From Gammaproteobacteria bacterium (lineage in GTDB: Bacteria > Pseudomonadota > Gammaproteobacteria > Steroidobacterales > Woeseiaceae): a DNA stretch of 42,697 bases. The position numbers were made by a program, and so were the translations under genes. Location: positions 1 through 42,697 of the forward strand of contig JAACFG010000004.1 of NCBI GenBank assembly GCA_009937605.1, given 5' to 3'. Below the pieces are notes generated by a model, which saw nothing but the letters and a program-made list of their open reading frames with translations, was not told the origin of the DNA and made no database searches. Positions 8,514 to 17,090 of this stretch are shown piece after piece. The stretch's first letter is position 1. Every line of letters starts with the position of its first letter.

Positions 8514-10382
8514 TTGCTTCCAGGACGCTCCATTCTTAATCGACTGTCTTTGCTGTGCCTGTTTGCAGCACCGCTGGTCTCGGCCGCGAGCAGCGATCGT
8601 GAACCGATCGTCGTCAGCGAGCCGCACTATGGCGAAGTCCTCTACTATTTCTACCAGGATGACTACTTCCCGGCGATCGTGCGCCTGTTGGCGGCGCAGG
8701 AACAGGAGCAAGTGATCGAGCATGGCGAGCAGGCTGAGGTATTGCTTGGCGGTCTGTTCCTGTCCTATGGACAACATCTTGAAGCCGCGGAAATATTCGA
8801 ACGCTTGCTCGCTGGCAATTCGGACCCCGACACCCGCAACCGAACGTGGTTTTTTCTTGCGAAGATCTGGTACCAACGCGGATATCTTGAAAAATCACGG
8901 TCGGCACTCGCCAATATAGAAGGCGATTTGCCCGATAGCCTGCAACGTGAAGCGCTGATGCTGAACGCGCAGATTCTGATCGACGCGGGTGAATACGACG
9001 CCGCCATCGCCTTACTGCAGAATTGGAAAGGTCGTACAGAGTGGGCCAGCTACGCCAAGTTCAATATCGGCGTGGCGCTGGTGCGCAGTGGCCGAATCGA
9101 TCAAGCGGCCGAACTGCTGAACGAACTGGGCGATATGGATCCGTTCAACGAGGAGCTGAACGCACTGCGTGACAAGGCAAATGTCGCCCTCGGCTACGCG
9201 CTGTTGCAGGACGGTCAGTACTATGCCGCGAAGGCGCCGTTGCAGCGCGTCCGGATGGAAGGACCATTTTCCAACAAGGCATTGCTTGGCGTCGGTTGGG
9301 CGGATGCCGAAATGGAAAATTATGATCGCGCCCTTGTTCCATGGATGGAGTTGCGAGGCCGTGACCTGCTCGATTCAGCGGTGCAGGAATCGATGCTTGC
9401 CATTCCTTACGCGATGGCCAAGCTTGATTCGATAAGCCAGGCCGCAGATCACTATCTCAATGCGATCGAGGCGTTCCACGAAGAATCCAATCGACTCGAT
9501 CGGGCTATCGGGCGGATCGAATCGGGCGAATTCTTTGATACTTTCGTCGCCGACTACCCGCTCGATAGCACGGGCTGGTACTGGGAGCTTGAAAAACTGC
9601 CTGAAGGACCGGAAGCCAGGTACCTGTTCCATGTATTGGCTTCGCACGAATTCCAGGAAGGACTTAAGAACTACCGCGACCTGAATTATCTGCATCGCAA
9701 TCTCGATGAGTGGCAGCAAAACGTCGATGTTTATGCCTACATGCTCGATACCCGGCAACAGGCATTTGAGCAGCGCTTGCCCGTCGTGCAGGACACCCTG
9801 GCACGCACAGATGTCGAAGGCATGGTCCAGCACAAGCTCGGTCTTGATGCCACGATGGACAATATCGAACGTTCCCATGACTGGCTGGCGCTTGCGACTA
9901 AATCGGAATCGGACATGTGGCGTGAGGTCACCGAAATCGCAGACAAGCCCGCTCTAGGTGCGGATATCCCGGAAGCGGCGGAAGTTCGCGACAAGACGGC
10001 GCTTATCAAAGGCGTCCTGCAATGGGGCCTGGAACGTGACTTCAATGATCGTCATTGGAATGTTCGCCGCGAATTGCAGGACGTTGGCGAGGGCCTGGTC
10101 CAGACCCAGCGTTCATACCGGCAGATCGACGAAGCGGTGCGCGAAGAGACGCGGCGTTTTGCAGAACTGGGTGATCGCGTCTACGGGCTTGAGCCGAGAG
10201 TTGAAGGCATGAAAATGCGCGTCGAAGATACTTTGTCGAGGCAGCGTGCATTCCTGCGGCAGATTGCAATCGGGGAGCTGCAGGCCCAAAAGGATCGCCT
10301 GGATGTCTACACGATTCAGGCGCGTTTCGCGCTGGCCGCGATTTACGATATCTCGGCGACAGCAGCGGAGGTGCCCGAATGA
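8514..10382 (+). CDS. Large exported TPR protein 1 (GltC/GltE-like scaffold)
   Basis: A 622-residue exported protein starting with TTG 3 bases after the upstream stop, preceded by GGGAG at 8503-8507. Signal peptide to about residue 25. Helical repeats begin at YGEVLYYFYQDDYFPAIVRLL (residues 39-59) and continue as degenerate TPRs to about residue 330 (HLEAAEIFERLL, YLEKSRSALANI, YDAAIALLQNW, NYDRALVPWMEL). The second half is charged and mainly alpha-helical, ending in a probable coiled coil. The operon as a whole (three TPR proteins, ExbB, two ExbD, AgmX-type transducer) parallels Myxococcus Glt/Agl, where TPR proteins GltC, GltD and GltE sit in periplasm or outer membrane. Assignment to one particular Glt protein is inference. 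Its end overlaps the next gene by ATGA. Confidence 0.85.
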   Translation: MLPGRSILNRLSLLCLFAAPLVSAASSDREPIVVSEPHYGEVLYYFYQDDYFPAIVRLLAAQEQEQVIEHGEQAEVLLGGLFLSYGQHLEAAEIFERLLAGNSDPDTRNRTWFFLAKIWYQRGYLEKSRSALANIEGDLPDSLQREALMLNAQILIDAGEYDAAIALLQNWKGRTEWASYAKFNIGVALVRSGRIDQAAELLNELGDMDPFNEELNALRDKANVALGYALLQDGQYYAAKAPLQRVRMEGPFSNKALLGVGWADAEMENYDRALVPWMELRGRDLLDSAVQESMLAIPYAMAKLDSISQAADHYLNAIEAFHEESNRLDRAIGRIESGEFFDTFVADYPLDSTGWYWELEKLPEGPEARYLFHVLASHEFQEGLKNYRDLNYLHRNLDEWQQNVDVYAYMLDTRQQAFEQRLPVVQDTLARTDVEGMVQHKLGLDATMDNIERSHDWLALATKSESDMWREVTEIADKPALGADIPEAAEVRDKTALIKGVLQWGLERDFNDRHWNVRRELQDVGEGLVQTQRSYRQIDEAVREETRRFAELGDRVYGLEPRVEGMKMRVEDTLSRQRAFLRQIAIGELQAQKDRLDVYTIQARFALAAIYDISATAAEVPE

Positions 10383-13198
10383 AGGCCCGCCACGTTGTTT
10401 GTCTATTGTTGCTGCCGGCTATTTTCGTCGTGTCACCGGGCGAAGCGCAGGTGAAAGAGAGCGAAACAATCAAGAGTCTTGAGGACAAGACGGTTGAGGT
10501 GCGACCGGGCAAGATCGCCCTCGATAGCTCCGAACTCGCGCGCGAGAGCTATCGCGATTTTCTCGATCTTGTGTCCGACGATCCGGAGTTGCGCGCAGAG
10601 GCCATGCGTCGCCTCGGCGATCTGGAGCTCGAGGCGAGTGAGGCACAGCAGCTGGCTCAGAATATTGAGGCAGTCGACACGCACGGCTTTGATAACGCGG
10701 TCGAACTGTATCTCATGTTGTTGAATTCCTACCCGGACTATCGACGCAACGACACGGTTCTTTATCAGCTGGCCCGTGCCTACGAAATCGCCGGTCGTAC
10801 TGATGAGGCCCTTGTTGTCCTGAACGACCTGATGGCACGTTATCCCAACACGGAACTGGTCGATGAAGTGCAGTTTCGTCGTGGCGAAATGTTGTTCCTT
10901 CGCAAGAATTACAATGACGCCGAGTTGGCGTACCAGGACGTCGTGAAATACGGCGAAAGTTCGCGATTCTATGAGCAGTCGCTGTACAAGCTGGGCTGGT
11001 CGCAATTCAAGCTGGGCTGGTATGAAGACAGCTTGTCACCATTCTTTGAATTGCTCGACCGGAAGATCGGCGATATTGACGTTGGCGAGGGCGAAGCACG
11101 CCTGGCTGAGCTGTCGCGGGCCGATCGGGAGCTTATCGAGGATGCATTCCGCGTTCTGAGTATTGGTTTTTCCTACATGCAGGGTGCGGAAAGTATCGAC
11201 AGTTATTTGGCGCAACGTGACATGCCGGTGTACTCGTTCGTCATCTATAGCAACCTGGGCGATCTTTACCTCGAGCAGGAACGTTTTCAGGACGCGGCCG
11301 AGACCTACGAAGCCTTCGTGGATCAGGATCCTTACCATCCGAAGGCACCAGTTCTCCAGGTCCAGGTAATCGAGGCTTACAAGAAGGGCGGATTCCCCAG
11401 CCTGGTGCTGGAAGGCAAGGAAGACTTTGTTGAACGCTACGGCATGGACGGTCCATTCTGGACGCGGAATCTGCGCGAAGAGAACGAAGCGGTCGCAGAC
11501 TATCTGAAATCGAATCTCACGGACCTTGCGCAGTACTATCACGCGGAAGCACAGCGCGATGGGAAGAAGAGCGACTACCAGCAGGCTGCGAACTGGTATC
11601 GGAAATATCTCGCCTATTTCCCGGGCGAACCCGATACGGCCAACACAAACTTCCTGCTCGCAGAAATCTTGTTTGAGAGCGAGGACTACACCGACGCGGT
11701 CGTCGAGTATGAACGCACCGCGTATGCTTATCCTTTTCACGAGAAATCCGCGGAGGCGGCTTACGCGGCTCTGCTTGCGTACCGTGCGCAGGAAGACCTC
11801 CTGGAAGACGGCGTCGCTAAGGATGCATGGCACCAGGCATTTCTCGATAGTGGTCTGAAATTCGCCGACACCTATCCCGAGCACCCGGAGTCGGGCACCG
11901 TTCTGACGCGGATCGCCGAAGATCTTTTCGCGCAAGACCAGTTTGACCTGGCGATCGCGGTGGGTCAGAACGTTATTGGTAAGCAGCCGCCGGTCAAGCC
12001 GGAACTGGCCCGTACAGCCTGGACCGTCGTCGCTCACTCGCACTTCGACCTCGGTCACTTCGCCGATGCTGAGACGGCCTACTACAGCCTGAGAAATTTC
12101 ACGCCGGCCGATGATGCTGTCGCGAACCAGGAGATCAAGGATCGCATCGCGTCTTCGATTTACAAGCAGGGCGAGCAGGCGCGCGACAATGGCGACCTCG
12201 AGTTAGCCGTGACAGATTTCCGGCGCCTGGGTGTTGCAGTACCGGATTCGGACATTCGCGAAATCGCTGAATACGATGCTGCCGCGGTGTTGATTACCAT
12301 GATGGCCTGGGATCGCGCATCGGTCGTGCTCGAGGAGTTCCGCCGTGACTACCCGAACAGCCAGTATTCTGACGACGTTACCCAGAAGCTCGCCGCGACC
12401 TACCTTGGAGCGGGACTGGGCGCGCGGGCAGCGAGCGAATTCGAGCGTATTGCCGATGCTCCGACGAGTACGGATGACACGAAACGGGAGGCGCTGTGGA
12501 AGGCGTCCGAGTTGTATGAACAGGATGGCTCCATCGCTGACGAGCAGCGCGTACTGAACGAAATCATCACGCGCTACCCGAATCCGATTTCCGAGTCGAT
12601 CGAAGCCCGGGCCCGTCTGCTCGAAATCGCCGAGCTGAGTGGCGATGAGCAGGAACGCGTTGCGCTGCTCGAAGATCTCGTGCAGGTCGATGCGATGGCA
12701 GGTGTACAGCGCTCCGATCGCACGCGCTATCTCGCGGCAACGGCATCGCTGCAATTGGCCGAGCCGGTTCGCAAGCGATTCGAGGTGGTCAAGCTGACGC
12801 AGCCCCTGGCCGATAGCCTGAAGCTCAAGAAAGATCTTATGGAAGACGTTCTCAGTGCGTATACGGCTGCCGCGGACTACGGCATTGCCGAGGTGACCAC
12901 GGCAGCGACCTATCGGCTCGGAGAGGTTTACGAGCAATTCTCGGCGGACCTGATGGATTCGGATCGGCCGGGCAATCTTGAAGCCGATGCACTTGAGCAG
13001 TACGAGATTCTCCTCGAGGAACAGGCTTACCCGTTCGAGGAAAAAGCGATCGACCTGTACATGGCCAACACAGATCGCGCCGCCGATGGCGTGTATGACG
13101 AGTGGGTCCGGCGTAGTTTCAATCGACTGGCAGGCCTCATGCCGGCCAGGTATGCGAAGAAGGAGCTCAGCGAAGATGTTGTCACAGCGCTGTACTAA
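10379..13198 (+). CDS. Very large exported TPR protein 2 (GltD/AgmU-like scaffold)
   Basis: 939 residues, translationally coupled to the preceding TPR gene by an ATGA overlap. Signal peptide at residues 1-23 (ending GEA-Q). Almost the entire chain is TPR-like helical hairpins with the usual small/aromatic spacing, for example DTVLYQLARAYEIAGRTDEA, AEVQF-type repeats around residue 165, IYSNLGDLYLEQERFQDAAE, NTNFLLAEILFESEDYTDAV and YEQSLYKLGWSQFKLGWYED. Such solenoids work as protein-protein scaffolds. The resemblance to the very long TPR protein GltD/AgmU of myxobacterial gliding rests on architecture and operon context, not on an alignment I could run. It should lie in the periplasm and could bridge the inner-membrane motor to outer-membrane parts. 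Confidence 0.87.
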   Translation: MKARHVVCLLLLPAIFVVSPGEAQVKESETIKSLEDKTVEVRPGKIALDSSELARESYRDFLDLVSDDPELRAEAMRRLGDLELEASEAQQLAQNIEAVDTHGFDNAVELYLMLLNSYPDYRRNDTVLYQLARAYEIAGRTDEALVVLNDLMARYPNTELVDEVQFRRGEMLFLRKNYNDAELAYQDVVKYGESSRFYEQSLYKLGWSQFKLGWYEDSLSPFFELLDRKIGDIDVGEGEARLAELSRADRELIEDAFRVLSIGFSYMQGAESIDSYLAQRDMPVYSFVIYSNLGDLYLEQERFQDAAETYEAFVDQDPYHPKAPVLQVQVIEAYKKGGFPSLVLEGKEDFVERYGMDGPFWTRNLREENEAVADYLKSNLTDLAQYYHAEAQRDGKKSDYQQAANWYRKYLAYFPGEPDTANTNFLLAEILFESEDYTDAVVEYERTAYAYPFHEKSAEAAYAALLAYRAQEDLLEDGVAKDAWHQAFLDSGLKFADTYPEHPESGTVLTRIAEDLFAQDQFDLAIAVGQNVIGKQPPVKPELARTAWTVVAHSHFDLGHFADAETAYYSLRNFTPADDAVANQEIKDRIASSIYKQGEQARDNGDLELAVTDFRRLGVAVPDSDIREIAEYDAAAVLITMMAWDRASVVLEEFRRDYPNSQYSDDVTQKLAATYLGAGLGARAASEFERIADAPTSTDDTKREALWKASELYEQDGSIADEQRVLNEIITRYPNPISESIEARARLLEIAELSGDEQERVALLEDLVQVDAMAGVQRSDRTRYLAATASLQLAEPVRKRFEVVKLTQPLADSLKLKKDLMEDVLSAYTAAADYGIAEVTTAATYRLGEVYEQFSADLMDSDRPGNLEADALEQYEILLEEQAYPFEEKAIDLYMANTDRAADGVYDEWVRRSFNRLAGLMPARYAKKELSEDVVTALY

Positions 13199-13823
13199 CA
13201 GAATGCGATTCTGCGGAGCCCTGTTCGCGCTACTCGTGGTCGCGGGTTGCGGAGGGACAGGTCCGACGCAAGAGGCGGCAGAAGCAGAGCAGCAGGTCGG
13301 CGCGGCCGGGCCTGCCCGAGTCGTTCCGCCGGAGGCCCAGACATTGTATGAACAGGCTACGGCAGTCATGGCCGCGGGCGATTTCGTTGACGCGGAACTG
13401 CGACTGAAGGAATTCGTACTCCTGTATCCCGACTATCCCGGGGCCTACGTAAATCTCGCGATCATTCACGCGACCAACGAGAACGATGCGGAGACTCAGG
13501 AGGCACTGGACGTCGCGCTGGCCCTGGAGCCGGACTACCCGGCCGCATTGAACCAATTGGGCATGCTACTTCGCAAAAATGGGAAATTTCTCGAGGCAGA
13601 AGCCGCTTATATGAAGGCTGTCACAGTTTCACCCGATTACGCCTTGGCACACTACAACCTGGGCGTTCTTAACGAACTATACCTGCAGCGACTGGAAACG
13701 GCGCTGCGACATTTCGAGACCTATCAAGGGCTTGTCGGTGAAGACAAGCAGGTTGAGAAATGGATCGCGGATCTGACGCGCCGCATAGCGGCAAGTCAGC
13801 GTACGGCAAACGTGGCGGAATGA
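13176..13823 (+). CDS. TPR lipoprotein
   Basis: A 215-residue lipoprotein. I choose the ATG at 13176 because AAGGAG (13160-13165) precedes it by 10 bases; the ATG at 13203 has no ribosome site. It therefore overlaps the upstream TPR gene by 23 bases in another frame. The lipobox is VVAGC (Cys25 counted from 13176), followed by a Gly/Ala/Glu-rich linker. Three to four canonical TPRs follow: AVMAAGDFVDAELRLKEFVL, AYVNLAIIHATNENDAETQE, ALNQLGMLLRKNGKFLEAEA and AHYNLGVLNELYLQRLETAL. After the Cys comes Gly, not Asp, favouring sorting to the outer membrane. It is the third TPR component of the operon, probably an outer-membrane-anchored pilotin-like part. Confidence 0.87.
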   Translation: MLSQRCTNRMRFCGALFALLVVAGCGGTGPTQEAAEAEQQVGAAGPARVVPPEAQTLYEQATAVMAAGDFVDAELRLKEFVLLYPDYPGAYVNLAIIHATNENDAETQEALDVALALEPDYPAALNQLGMLLRKNGKFLEAEAAYMKAVTVSPDYALAHYNLGVLNELYLQRLETALRHFETYQGLVGEDKQVEKWIADLTRRIAASQRTANVAE

Positions 13824-14245
13824 AGGACATGAGTACTGCAACAAACAAGGTATTCGGCACCGGATTCATGCTCGCCATGTTGTTGGCAGCGTTTGCCTCT
13901 TTTGCCCAGGACGCGGCGGAAGATGCGGATGACCTTATGCCCGCGGTTGATACCTCGGCAGTTGTCGAGGAGGAAGAGCCAGCCGCGCCGGCGGAGGACA
14001 TTACGCGAACGACGACGGGCAATACCGTTATGGATTCGATGGAGCTTGGCCGCACCGAGATTACGGGTAACCAGGAGCTGCCGAAGGTGCTGTACATCGT
14101 GCCATGGCAGAAATCGGATCCGGGAGATTTGATGGGCAGGCCTGTCAATTCATTGCTCGATGAGGTGCTGGCACCCGTCGATCGAGGAGAATTTTTACGC
14201 CAGGTCGGTTATTACGACGATCTGTACGGAACTGAACAAGAGTAG
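13820..14245 (+). CDS. Small exported protein of unknown function in TPR/ExbB operon
   Basis: A 141-residue protein whose ATG overlaps the preceding TGA (ATGA). Signal peptide ends at AFASFA-Q (about residue 29). Residues 32-70 are acidic and Pro/Ala-rich, probably disordered. The C-terminal 60 residues are more ordered and look conserved: ELPKVLYIVPWQKSDPGDLM then LLDEVLAPVDRGEFLRQVGYYDDL. I do not recognise the family. The stop codon TAG is supplied by the start (GTAGGAG) of a REP element, so the original C-terminus may have been altered by REP insertion. The gene sits between the TPR block and the ExbB block and may link the TPR scaffold to the motor. Confidence 0.75.
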   Translation: MKDMSTATNKVFGTGFMLAMLLAAFASFAQDAAEDADDLMPAVDTSAVVEEEEPAAPAEDITRTTTGNTVMDSMELGRTEITGNQELPKVLYIVPWQKSDPGDLMGRPVNSLLDEVLAPVDRGEFLRQVGYYDDLYGTEQE

Positions 14246-14320
14246 GAGCGCGCCTTTTGGCCAGGACGGCCTTATGTCCCGGAGTACGGGGACGTACGAG
14301 AGGGACGGCGCGCGAATGAT
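14242..14320 (+). repeat. REP-like element 1, long composite form
   Basis: Starts GTAGGAG, then GCGCGCC (14248-14254) pairs with GGCGCGC (14307-14313), followed by GAATGAT. The 52-base apical region folds further: GGCC-AGGAC-GGCC (14259-14271) and GTCCC/GGGAC (14276-14293). Same head and tail as the simple REP next to it. The head provides the TAG stop of the upstream gene. Confidence 0.65.
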
Positions 14321-14347
14321 GTAGGAGCCCGCCTTGCGGGCGAAATG
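14321..14347 (+). repeat. REP-like element 2
   Basis: GTAGGAG followed by the perfect stem GCCCGC-CTT-GCGGGC and tail GAAATG. This is the GTAGGAG-headed REP class known from Pseudomonas- and Xanthomonas-type genomes. It directly abuts REP 1, forming a tandem pair in the 135-base gap before exbB. No RAYT transposase is in the window. Confidence 0.75.
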
Positions 14348-14380: not shown

Positions 14381-15022
14381 ATGAGCACTATCGTGCGTTT
14401 TTTCCAGGAAGGCGGACCTTTCATGATCCCCATCCTGTTGGTATTTGGATTCGGTATCGCGATCGCGATCGAACGCTGGACATTCCTGACTCTGTCAGGC
14501 GCCAGCAACCGTGCATTGTGGAAGAAAATCGTGCCTTTCCTGAAGGCCGGAAACTTCCAGGAAGCAGCCGCACACACTTCGAAGTCGAAGGCCGCCATCG
14601 GCTCGATCCTGACCTACGGACTGTACCGCGTTAAGTCGGCACGCCGTCGCGACGATATCGAAAAAGCCATGGAAGAGAGCCTGATGGAGGTGCTGCCGCG
14701 TCTTGAGAAGCGGACACATTACATCGCGACGCTCGCGAACATTGCGACGCTGCTCGGACTGCTCGGTACGATTATTGGCCTGATCGCCGCGTTTACGGCA
14801 GTCGCTGAAGCGAACCCGGCTGAGAAGGCAGATATGCTGTCGGCGTCGATTTCGACAGCGATGAACACCACGGCATTCGGCCTCATGGCTGCAATTCCGC
14901 TGCTGCTCGTTCACGCGCTGCTGCAGACGAAGACAAACGCACTCGTGGACAGCCTCGAGATGGCCAGCGTGAAGTTCCTGAACGCAGTCACCGAACGTCA
15001 GCTGAAGCCTTCGGGAGCGTAA
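14381..15022 (+). CDS. exbB: ExbB/TolQ/MotA family proton channel
   Basis: A 213-residue inner-membrane channel subunit with three transmembrane helices: residues 13-34, about 118-140 (NIATLLGLLGTIIGLIAAFTAV) and about 160-182 (STAMNTTAFGLMAAIPLLLVHALL). The cytoplasmic loop between helices 1 and 2 and the Thr-rich pore helices are as in ExbB and TolQ, which form a pentamer around an ExbD/TolR dimer and use the proton motive force to move it. Start supported by AGAGGAG at 14367-14373. It begins the second half of the operon, after two REP elements, and is followed after 3 bases by exbD. In myxobacterial gliding the equivalent is AglR. Confidence 0.95.
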   Translation: MSTIVRFFQEGGPFMIPILLVFGFGIAIAIERWTFLTLSGASNRALWKKIVPFLKAGNFQEAAAHTSKSKAAIGSILTYGLYRVKSARRRDDIEKAMEESLMEVLPRLEKRTHYIATLANIATLLGLLGTIIGLIAAFTAVAEANPAEKADMLSASISTAMNTTAFGLMAAIPLLLVHALLQTKTNALVDSLEMASVKFLNAVTERQLKPSGA

Positions 15023-15025
15023 GTA

Positions 15026-15547
15026 ATGATCCGCAGCCGCAGAGGTGGCCGTCGTAACCAAGAGACGGTCGAACTCAATATCACGGCATTCATGAACCTG
15101 ATGGTGATCCTGGTTCCGTTCCTGCTTATCACCGCGGTGTTCTCGCGATTGGCAATTCTCGAATTGAATTTGCCAGGCTCCTCCAGTGAGCCCGTGGAAC
15201 CGCAGGAACAGACATTCCAGCTCGAAATCATCGTGCGTCAGGACAAGATTGAGGTCGGAGATCGTAATCAGGGCCTGTTGGGCATCTATCCCAACGGCGA
15301 TGACGGTCGCTACGACTTTGTGGCACTTGCGGAAAAACTGACTGAGCTCAAGGAACGCTATCCGACAAAAACGGATGCTGCGATTCTCCTGGAGCAGGAC
15401 ATTGCCTACGACACGCTGGTCCAGGTCATGGACACAGTACGTGTCGCTCAGGAAATCAATGAAGACGACGGGGTGATCGATCGATCCGATTTGTTCCCTG
15501 ACATATCTATCGGCGACGCGCCGGTACAGGGCGGAGGAACCTCGTAA
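15026..15547 (+). CDS. exbD: ExbD/TolR-like protein 1 lacking the conserved TM aspartate
   Basis: A 173-residue biopolymer-transport protein: short basic cytoplasmic N-terminus, one transmembrane helix (about 19-41) and a periplasmic domain. In ExbD, TolR and MotB the start of the helix carries an essential Asp, with the pattern F-x-D-x-M in ExbD. Here the helix reads ITAFMNLMVILVPFLLI, with Asn24 (codon AAC) at that position. The partner gene immediately downstream retains Asp. Everything else is intact, and the gene is in frame and coupled (TAATG) to the next one, so this looks like a specialised subunit, not decay. Myxobacterial gliding motors also use two ExbD-like proteins (AglQ, AglS) with one AglR. 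Confidence 0.92.
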   Translation: MIRSRRGGRRNQETVELNITAFMNLMVILVPFLLITAVFSRLAILELNLPGSSSEPVEPQEQTFQLEIIVRQDKIEVGDRNQGLLGIYPNGDDGRYDFVALAEKLTELKERYPTKTDAAILLEQDIAYDTLVQVMDTVRVAQEINEDDGVIDRSDLFPDISIGDAPVQGGGTS

Positions 15548-16074
15548 TGGTCAAGTCGGGTCGCGCCAAACGGATGGAGAAACACCACAAGCGAAACCTG
15601 GGGTCGGGGACGCTCAATCTCGTTTCGCTCATGGATATATTCACGATTCTGGTCTTCTTCCTGCTGGTTAATTCTTCAGACGTTCAGACGTTGCCGAATG
15701 CCAAGGATATGAAGCTGCCGGAGTCGATTGCAGAAAAGAAGCCGGAAGAGACAGTCACAATCCTGATCGGCAAGACAGAGATTCTTGTGCAGGGCACGCC
15801 AGTCGCCAGTATCGATGAAGTCATGGCAACCGTCGGCAACGACATTCCAGCGTTGCGCGAGGCGTTGCTGTCACAAAATGATCGCGCACTGAGGCGAGCG
15901 GCCGCGGATGACATAGCGGGCCGCGAAGTCACGATCATGGGCGATAAAGACATACCGTACCGTCTGCTTAAGAAAGTGATGGCGACGTGTACGGCATCGG
16001 ATTACGGACAGATCTCACTGGCAGTGCTGCAGAAGAGTTCAGAAATGCTGGACGACCTTCAGGCGGCCCTCTAG
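15547..16074 (+). CDS. exbD: ExbD/TolR-like protein 2 with conserved aspartate
   Basis: A 175-residue ExbD/TolR family protein overlapping the previous exbD by one base (TAATG). A longer basic N-terminus (residues 1-20, MVKSGRAKRMEKHHKRNL) precedes the single helix LNLVSLMDIFTILVFFLLV, where Asp30 sits at the proton-carrying position. The periplasmic domain (residues 50-175) contains VTILIGKTEILVQGTPV and a C-terminal strand-helix pair, as in ExbD. It would form the proton-conducting half of an ExbD1/ExbD2 heterodimer, or the only working dimer with ExbB. The AgmX-type transducer follows after 30 bases. Confidence 0.94.
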   Translation: MVKSGRAKRMEKHHKRNLGSGTLNLVSLMDIFTILVFFLLVNSSDVQTLPNAKDMKLPESIAEKKPEETVTILIGKTEILVQGTPVASIDEVMATVGNDIPALREALLSQNDRALRRAAADDIAGREVTIMGDKDIPYRLLKKVMATCTASDYGQISLAVLQKSSEMLDDLQAAL

Positions 16075-16104: not shown

Positions 16105-17061
16105 TTGGACCTACCGTTTTACAGAGAGTATGAGCTGCCATGGACGACTGGCCAGAGTCAGGAGCGCAAGTTCCAGCGCCTGCTCGGGATCATCTTCCTT
16201 ATTTGTCTCCTGCTCAGTGCCGTTTGGCCCTTTATTCCAGTCCCTGAGGCGGATCCCTTTGATGTAGAAGAGATTCCGCCAAGAATTGCGCAGCTGCTTC
16301 TTGAAGAGAAGCCTTTACCACCACCACCGCCGCCGCCCGAGCCAGAGCCCGAACCGGAGCCCGATGAGCCGGAGCCGGAGCCGGAGCAGGTCGTGGAGAC
16401 AGAGCCTGAGCCTGAGCCCGTGATCGAGCCGGAGCCGGAACCCGTAGTCGATCGCCAGGAACAGGCCCGCGAGGAAGCGCAGGCCGCCCTGATGCCGTTT
16501 GCGGAGGACCTTGCAGATCTCGTGGACAAAGATTTGCAGGTCGCGGACGACCGCCCACTCACCGCGTCAGTTGGTGAAGCTGAGCGAAATGAACGATCGA
16601 TGATAACGTCGAGTGCAGGCGCCGCGTCAGGTGGTATCAATACGGCGGCCATGAGCAGGAACACCGGTGGCACGAGTATTGCTGGCCGTAACACGACTCA
16701 AGTGGAAAGCCCGGTTGCGGGTATTGGTCAGCCGGGTGTCAGTGCGAGTCGCAGCGGATCGAGTGGCAGGGCGTCGCGTTCACGTGAAGAGATCGAGTTG
16801 GTCTTCGACAAGAACAAAGGCGCTATCTTTGCACTCTACAATCGTGCCCTTCGGCAGGATCCGTCACTTGAAGGTAAGCTGGTTCTGCGGCTTACTATTG
16901 CGCCGAACGGCCAGGTTACGATGTGCGAGGTCGTGTCGAGCGAATTGGGTGACGACGAGCTCGAACGCAAGCTTGTGGCACGCGTCAAACTGTTCCGCTT
17001 CGAGGCGAGAGACGTCGAGGCGATAACGACGACCAAGCCGATCGACTTCTTCCCGGCTTAG
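16105..17061 (+). CDS. TonB-like energy transducer with AgmX/PglI C-terminal domain
   Basis: A 318-residue protein with a short cytoplasmic N-terminus, one transmembrane helix (about 26-46) and a Pro/Glu-rich periplasm-spanning rod (residues 69-118, repeated PEPEP units after seven prolines), then a Ser/Gly-rich linker. The C-terminal 90 residues match the AgmX/PglI domain: SREEIELVFDKNKGAIFALYNRALRQDPSLEGKLVL, then TIAPNGQVTMCEVVSSELG and a final DFFPA. Myxococcus GltG and GltJ (AgmX) carry this domain and couple the AglRQS motor to the rest of the gliding complex. The start is TTG with CAGGAG at 16090-16095. It closes the operon and faces DUF899 convergently across a REP element. Confidence 0.92.
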   Translation: MDLPFYREYELPWTTGQSQERKFQRLLGIIFLICLLLSAVWPFIPVPEADPFDVEEIPPRIAQLLLEEKPLPPPPPPPEPEPEPEPDEPEPEPEQVVETEPEPEPVIEPEPEPVVDRQEQAREEAQAALMPFAEDLADLVDKDLQVADDRPLTASVGEAERNERSMITSSAGAASGGINTAAMSRNTGGTSIAGRNTTQVESPVAGIGQPGVSASRSGSSGRASRSREEIELVFDKNKGAIFALYNRALRQDPSLEGKLVLRLTIAPNGQVTMCEVVSSELGDDELERKLVARVKLFRFEARDVEAITTTKPIDFFPA

Positions 17062-17070
17062 GTCGAGTTT

Positions 17071-17090
17071 GCGGCCGTGGCCGCTCCTAC
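17071..17090 (-). repeat. REP-like element 3
   Basis: Read on the minus strand: GTAGGAGCGGCCACGGCCGC, with stem GCGGCC/GGCCGC and a short loop. It is the same GTAGGAG class as the two copies near 14242-14347 but in opposite orientation. Its TAG is the stop codon of the DUF899 gene. It fills the 25-base gap between two convergent genes. Confidence 0.7.

Follow-up and report, generated by a model that had tools for sequence, protein, structure and literature searches.

An Asn/Asp pair of ExbD proteins in a gammaproteobacterial relative of the AglRQS/Glt motor

Known 5:2 motors and the operon in the window

ExbD and TolR proteins have a proton-binding Asp in their transmembrane helix. The motors ExbB5-ExbD2, TolQ5-TolR2 and MotA5-MotB2 each have two identical axle subunits with an Asp in each. 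In the turnstile scheme for such 5:2 motors the two sites alternate, and ten-fold rotational symmetry has been called 'almost certain to be a universal feature'; whether protonation is swapped via doubly protonated or doubly charged states was stated as unknown (PMC9389320). In M. xanthus, the motor for gliding and sporulation is encoded in the order aglR-aglQ-aglS, with one ExbB and two ExbDs. AglRQS is driven by the PMF, and GltG interacts with AglR (PMC3169522). AglQ and AglS have both been described with an Asp, and whether they form hetero- or homodimers was stated as unknown (PMC9389320). The D28N substitution in AglQ is reported to cause loss of proton conductance, gliding and sporulation (PMC3858216). 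A Glt/Agl 'core complex' was also reported in Gammaproteobacteria, where its function was stated as unknown (Luciano et al. 2011, PMC3169522).

The window, the whole 42,697-nt stretch of DNA analysed here, is from a gammaproteobacterium of the Woeseiaceae (contig JAACFG010000004.1) and contains an operon with the following features.

8514..10382, + strand: TPR protein with a signal peptide, GltC/GltD-like candidate
10379..13198, + strand: large periplasmic TPR protein, GltD/GltC-like candidate
13203..13823, + strand: TPR lipoprotein, GltE-like (lipobox LVVAGC)
13820..14245, + strand: small secreted protein, no Pfam family
14381..15022, + strand: ExbB/TolQ-like pentamer subunit, AglR-like, the sole one in the operon (Pfam MotA_ExbB, 101 bits)
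15026..15547, + strand: exbD1, 173 aa, with Asn24 at the proton site; positional counterpart of AglQ
15095..15097, + strand: codon AAC for ExbD1 Asn24, one transition from Asp
15547..16074, + strand: exbD2, 175 aa, with Asp30; positional counterpart of AglS
15634..15636, + strand: codon GAT for ExbD2 Asp30, read from the sequence
16105..17061, + strand: GltG-like TonB-type transducer, with a TM segment, a Pro-rich region and an AgmX/PglI C-terminal domain (NF033768, 64.3 bits, cut-off 40)

The operon has the gene order of the M. xanthus motor, with one ExbB and two ExbDs, and shares with the gammaproteobacterial core complex the clustering of these genes with a TonB-like GltG, TPR proteins and an extra small gene (PMC3169522). 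By gene order and domains, the core-complex set of one ExbB, two ExbDs, the TPR proteins GltD, GltE and GltC and the TonB-like GltG is present. GltG and GltE scored below the NCBIfam cut-offs for the Myxococcus-type equivalogs (42.3 of 650 bits and 24.9 of 225 bits, respectively), indicating that the operon is a relative of AglRQS/Glt and not the same machine. The operon is the form that the Myxococcus AglRQS/Glt core complex takes in Gammaproteobacteria. The small gene at 13820..14245 probably corresponds to the 'additional gene' that the core complex has outside the Deltaproteobacteria (PMC3169522). Its product shares a region with an I-x-P-W motif, and a C-terminal stretch resembling PVD-x-x-x-FLR, with the small genes at two further loci of the host genome, C175 and C4. 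Palindromic, REP-like sequences bearing GTAGGAGC lie between the small gene and exbB (14242-14345) and right after the GltG-like gene (17060-17090), with 3 matches against 0.56 expected.

The window proteins share the fold, the helix position and the invariant pore Thr residues of ExbB5-ExbD2, TolQ5-TolR2 and MotA5-MotB2. In contrast to the identical axle subunits of those motors, the two ExbDs of the window are unlike each other. Heterologous pairs, the TPH-vWA proteins that accompany TolQ, have been predicted as the axle of a TolQ-like pentamer; these are reported to have a conserved Asp pair, one per monomer (PMC12204202), whereas the window pair is Asn/Asp. Neither 'aspart' nor 'Asp' appears in the main text of PMC3169522, and we found no published Asn variant in the open-licence literature. 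The operon belongs to a known type of motor, to the description of which the present analysis adds the Asn/Asp split.

The Asn/Asp pair and its conservation

The stop codon of exbD1 and the start codon of exbD2 overlap by 1 nt (TAATG, 15545-15549). The N-terminus and helix of ExbD1 read MIRSRRGGRRNQETVELNITAFMN24LMVILVPFLLITAVFSRL and the helix of ExbD2 reads LNLVSLMD30IFTILVFFLLVNSS. Both proteins exceeded the curated cut-off of the Pfam ExbD profile (PF02472, 25.4 bits), with 63.8 bits for ExbD1 and 62.1 bits for ExbD2. In an alignment with canonical ExbD, Asn24 occupies the Asp column, and Pro31 lies two turns beyond it. The reading frames and the alignment bear out the earlier note, which had placed Asn24 of ExbD1 at the position of the essential Asp and Asp30 in the second, overlapping gene. 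The conserved transmembrane Asp that marks a proton carrier is thus present in ExbD2 and absent from ExbD1.

The AlphaFold2 model of ExbD1 (pLDDT 87) consists of a helix (residues 19-47) and a periplasmic domain. Foldseek alone gave no match to the model with E < 0.001. The fold matches came from a VIA second look, in which the best matches of the predicted periplasmic domain were TolR and ExbD (E. coli TolR 5by4, Z 10.6, rmsd 2.3 over 82; ExbD 8vgc, Z 8.9). The model combines a single transmembrane segment with a TolR/ExbD periplasmic fold. Since the helix ranks with the best-conserved parts of ExbD1, with T20, F22, L25, M26, V27, L29, P31 and F32-L34 nearly invariant, and the predicted periplasmic domain is TolR/ExbD-like, ExbD1 is not a relic. 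By its sequence and predicted fold, ExbD1 is a member of the family, and by its transmembrane residue it is not a proton carrier.

The host genome (3.12 Mb assembly) has ten ExbD-like genes, six of which make up three exbB-exbD1-exbD2 loci, namely the window, C175 and C4. At C175 and C4, ExbD1 has FLNLMV and ExbD2 has LMDVFT, making all three loci Asn/Asp even though these ExbD1s share no more than 44-47% identity with that of the window. The remaining four ExbDs have Asp. C175 and C4 represent two more copies of the core-complex motor (ExbB 58-60% identical), and their GltG-like proteins have a long extra N-terminal region, probably coiled-coil, that is absent in the window copy. A TonB-type locus of the same genome (C136; L001, L003, L015, L016) likewise has two adjacent exbD genes and is a natural control for tandem ExbDs. 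Both of its ExbDs have Asp (LTPMLDVV), and it has two ExbB-like genes in contrast to the one exbB of the window operon.

To survey relatives, loci were collected with an ExbB query that was blind to the trait (best 80 contigs, mostly MAGs of Woeseiaceae and Chromatiales, all close relatives) and with an ExbD1 query over the class, order and phylum, for which flanking DNA was retrieved. Residues were counted on readable distinct sequences with duplicates removed. Of 239 ExbD1 orthologues, 222 had Asn at the proton site, 15 had Asp and 2 had Ser, compared to Asp in all 232 readable ExbD2 sequences. The alignment of homologous pairs, which had been suggested as a check on whether the Asn is conserved, therefore speaks for conservation, and operons with Asp in both proteins, the pattern expected of a private Asn substitution here, are a minority. 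Ordinary ExbDs from the same searches served as controls and had Asp in 19 of 20 distinct sequences by pattern, with Asp recognised by eye in the 20th (ITPMLDVV). The Asn codons surveyed in exbD1 were AAC (145) and AAT (62), each one transition from Asp, so that reversion is always one mutation away. The two Ser sequences, L188 and L203, belong to separate lineages, which suggests that what is maintained at this position is a neutral polar side chain and not Asn specifically.

A compensating acid in the ExbD1 helix or in ExbB TM3 was rejected on residue surveys. Between -4 and +17 around the ExbD1 site no other acid was found, except for a single Glu at +17 in one sequence, which disposes of the idea that an acidic residue one helical turn away does the same job. 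The E/D at -8 of ExbD1 is pre-helix and is found in ordinary ExbDs too, and position -6 was N in 147, D in 52 and E in 5 of the 207 Asn-type operons. The TM3 Glu of some canonical ExbBs (GIAEAL) is here Val, Thr, Ile or Leu. As this position is non-acidic in Asn- and Asp-types alike, it does not compensate.

Pairing was surveyed in a sample of 369 genomes from across the class, ~83 of which carry the operon. All 97 ExbD1 matches were directly upstream of an ExbD2 (94 counted by script, and three on the minus strand, with a 4-nt ExbD2 overlap, by coordinates). The ExbD2 matches were paired in 97 of 99 cases, the other two being one at a contig end and one orphan (L294). Among the best 80 ExbB-found loci, both exbD genes were present in 71 of the 71 with enough downstream sequence. 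The orphan ExbD2 (L294, 2437-4301) has no N-terminus and no adjoining ExbB or ExbD1, and a frayed TonB-like gene lies downstream; this copy of the operon has apparently decayed.

Asp-type ExbD1s and the pore positions

The 15 Asp-type ExbD1s belong to three family groups in the window's own order. In these proteins VPM-I-D or SMID replaces TAFMN, and Phe or Thr is found at the position of Pro31. The equivalents of the conserved pore Thr residues in ExbB, Thr130 and Thr164, are invariant in both types. Thr163, which adjoins Thr164, is the most discriminating ExbB position of all: 201 of 209 operons of the Asn/Ser type have Thr here, and all 13 of the Asp type have Asn or Cys. ExbD2 Met29, immediately before Asp30, also varies with the Asp-type set. 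ExbD1 Pro31, ExbB Thr163 and ExbD2 Met29 thus change together, as expected if the ExbD1 and ExbD2 helices line one pore. ExbD1-ExbD2 pairs made up 45 of the 100 strongest covarying pairs between proteins, a weak signal from which phylogeny was not removed. There were about five changes per site, well-supported pairs agreed 3/3 in most pairings and the sign test was not significant; within Asn/Ser-type operons only, the signal fell to rank ~500-850 of 87,041 pairs. As evidence of contact, the covariation of Pro31, Thr163 and Met29 is suggestive only.

On the unrooted ExbB+ExbD2 tree the Asp-types were nested in two places, a clade of 12 and L266. Most were basal on a rooted ExbB tree and nested again on a second rooted tree, and the AU test favoured neither placement. 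L266 has an ExbD1 whose N-terminus and helix resemble those of its own ExbD2 (GRTARMARHHKRH...INL-SMID-LT-LVFFLLV). Its exbD1 has 99 of 131 nt identical to its own exbD2, compared to short, weak local matches within the Asn-type neighbours. The Asp, N-terminus and helix of L266 ExbD1 were apparently acquired from the adjacent ExbD2 by gene conversion, suggesting that a motor with two ExbD2-like helices is tolerated. A shorter similar stretch (47/57) was seen between exbD1 and exbD2 of L254. Given Asp in 15 ExbD1s, it would be too strong to call the Asn obligatory.

A one-site heterodimer model and its alternatives

We propose that the operon specifies a proton-driven 5:2 motor of the cell envelope, one of the AglRQS/Glt core-complex type, the axle of which would be an ExbD1-ExbD2 heterodimer within one ExbB pentamer. 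We assign this ExbB5:ExbD1:ExbD2 motor with a single titratable site a probability of about 0.58. The interpretation in the earlier note, which already included such a heterodimer, is partly supported by the pairing, the Asn/Asp conservation and the lack of a substitute acid nearby. We infer the heterodimer from the presence of one exbB for both exbD genes, their 1-nt overlap, the 97/97 adjacency and the joint pore signature; the few independent covariation events, the 15 Asp-type ExbD1s and L266 were counted against it. Proton binding and release would be carried out by Asp30 of ExbD2 alone, and the Asn (or Ser) of ExbD1 would form a permanently neutral opposite face, a passive partner mimicking a protonated site. 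With one Asn, the two-site alternation of the turnstile scheme could not occur and a doubly charged state would be impossible. If each axle has one site, a full turn would involve about five proton transits and as many powered strokes, not ten, provided that rotation with both sites neutral is permitted; otherwise the stroke would be reciprocating. The GltG-like transducer would relay the work to the TPR components and to those in the outer membrane. M. xanthus AglQ D28N is dead, whereas the first ExbD of the window naturally has Asn. With ExbD1 in the place of AglQ, a counterpart assigned by gene order only, a change lethal to the Myxococcus motor would be the normal state here.

The main rival, which we consider unlikely, is that two complexes use a common ExbB: an ordinary two-Asp motor, ExbB5:ExbD2(2), and a static, proton-dead ExbB5:ExbD1(2) acting as an anchor, plug or regulator. 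A distinct and strongly conserved helix is found in each ExbD, and ExbD family proteins homodimerise. The same pore signature could also arise if ExbB coevolved with two homodimers in different complexes; coevolution with both helices is equally expected in that case. The constant adjacency, the 1-nt overlap in the window and, weakly because phylogeny was not removed, the share of ExbD1-ExbD2 pairs among the top covarying pairs argue instead for a joint complex.

Less likely still is an accessory role for ExbD1 outside the pore, comparable to that of TonB or TolA on the ExbB rim, with an ExbD2 homodimer as the axle. The lost proton site, the ExbD1-specific Pro31 and a basic residue where the helix ends on the periplasmic side would fit such a role, but ExbD1 retains the pore-helix pattern, its buried site is Asn or Ser instead of being hydrophobic, and its helix covaries with ExbB Thr163, the neighbour of the pore residue Thr164. 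A purely structural role for ExbD1, which the earlier note had raised, is also a live rival.

That Asn24 takes part in ion passage, as a hydrogen-bonding relay or by coordinating, for example, Na+, so that both sites of the motor function, though unequally, seems improbable. Asn, rarely Ser, is maintained over small or hydrophobic residues, and the pore is rich in hydroxyl and amide groups (ExbB Thr123, Thr130, Asn162, Thr163 and Thr164), but the Asp-to-Asn change in MotB is used as a mimic of the permanently protonated site (PMC9389320) and AglQ D28N abolishes conductance (PMC3858216). A private substitution or sequencing error was rejected, with Asn conserved in the paralogous loci and the orthologues, and these, like a functionless, decaying paralogue, are very hard to reconcile with Asn at three loci of one genome and in 222 distinct orthologues, with intact reading frames and with a near-invariant helix.

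A one-site heterodimer motor could extend beyond this operon. The existence of a broad natural family of 5:2 motors, with an obligate heterodimeric axle, one titratable site and half the proton stoichiometry (five strokes per turn or back-and-forth motion), is a tentative proposal to which we give slightly less than even odds. If it is true, the two-site exchange symmetry beneath the general turnstile model of 5:2 motors would be broken, and the doubly charged [- -] intermediate would be excluded for a one-site heterodimer motor. The Asn/Asp operon, together with its natural Asp/Asp and Ser/Asp relatives, makes these questions of stoichiometry and mechanism testable, and the Asn/Asp pair offers a biochemical entry point to this widespread envelope machine. 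A half-sited motor may be naturally fixed in a little-studied relative of the flagellar and gliding motors, where it would serve as a probe of how such machines turn.
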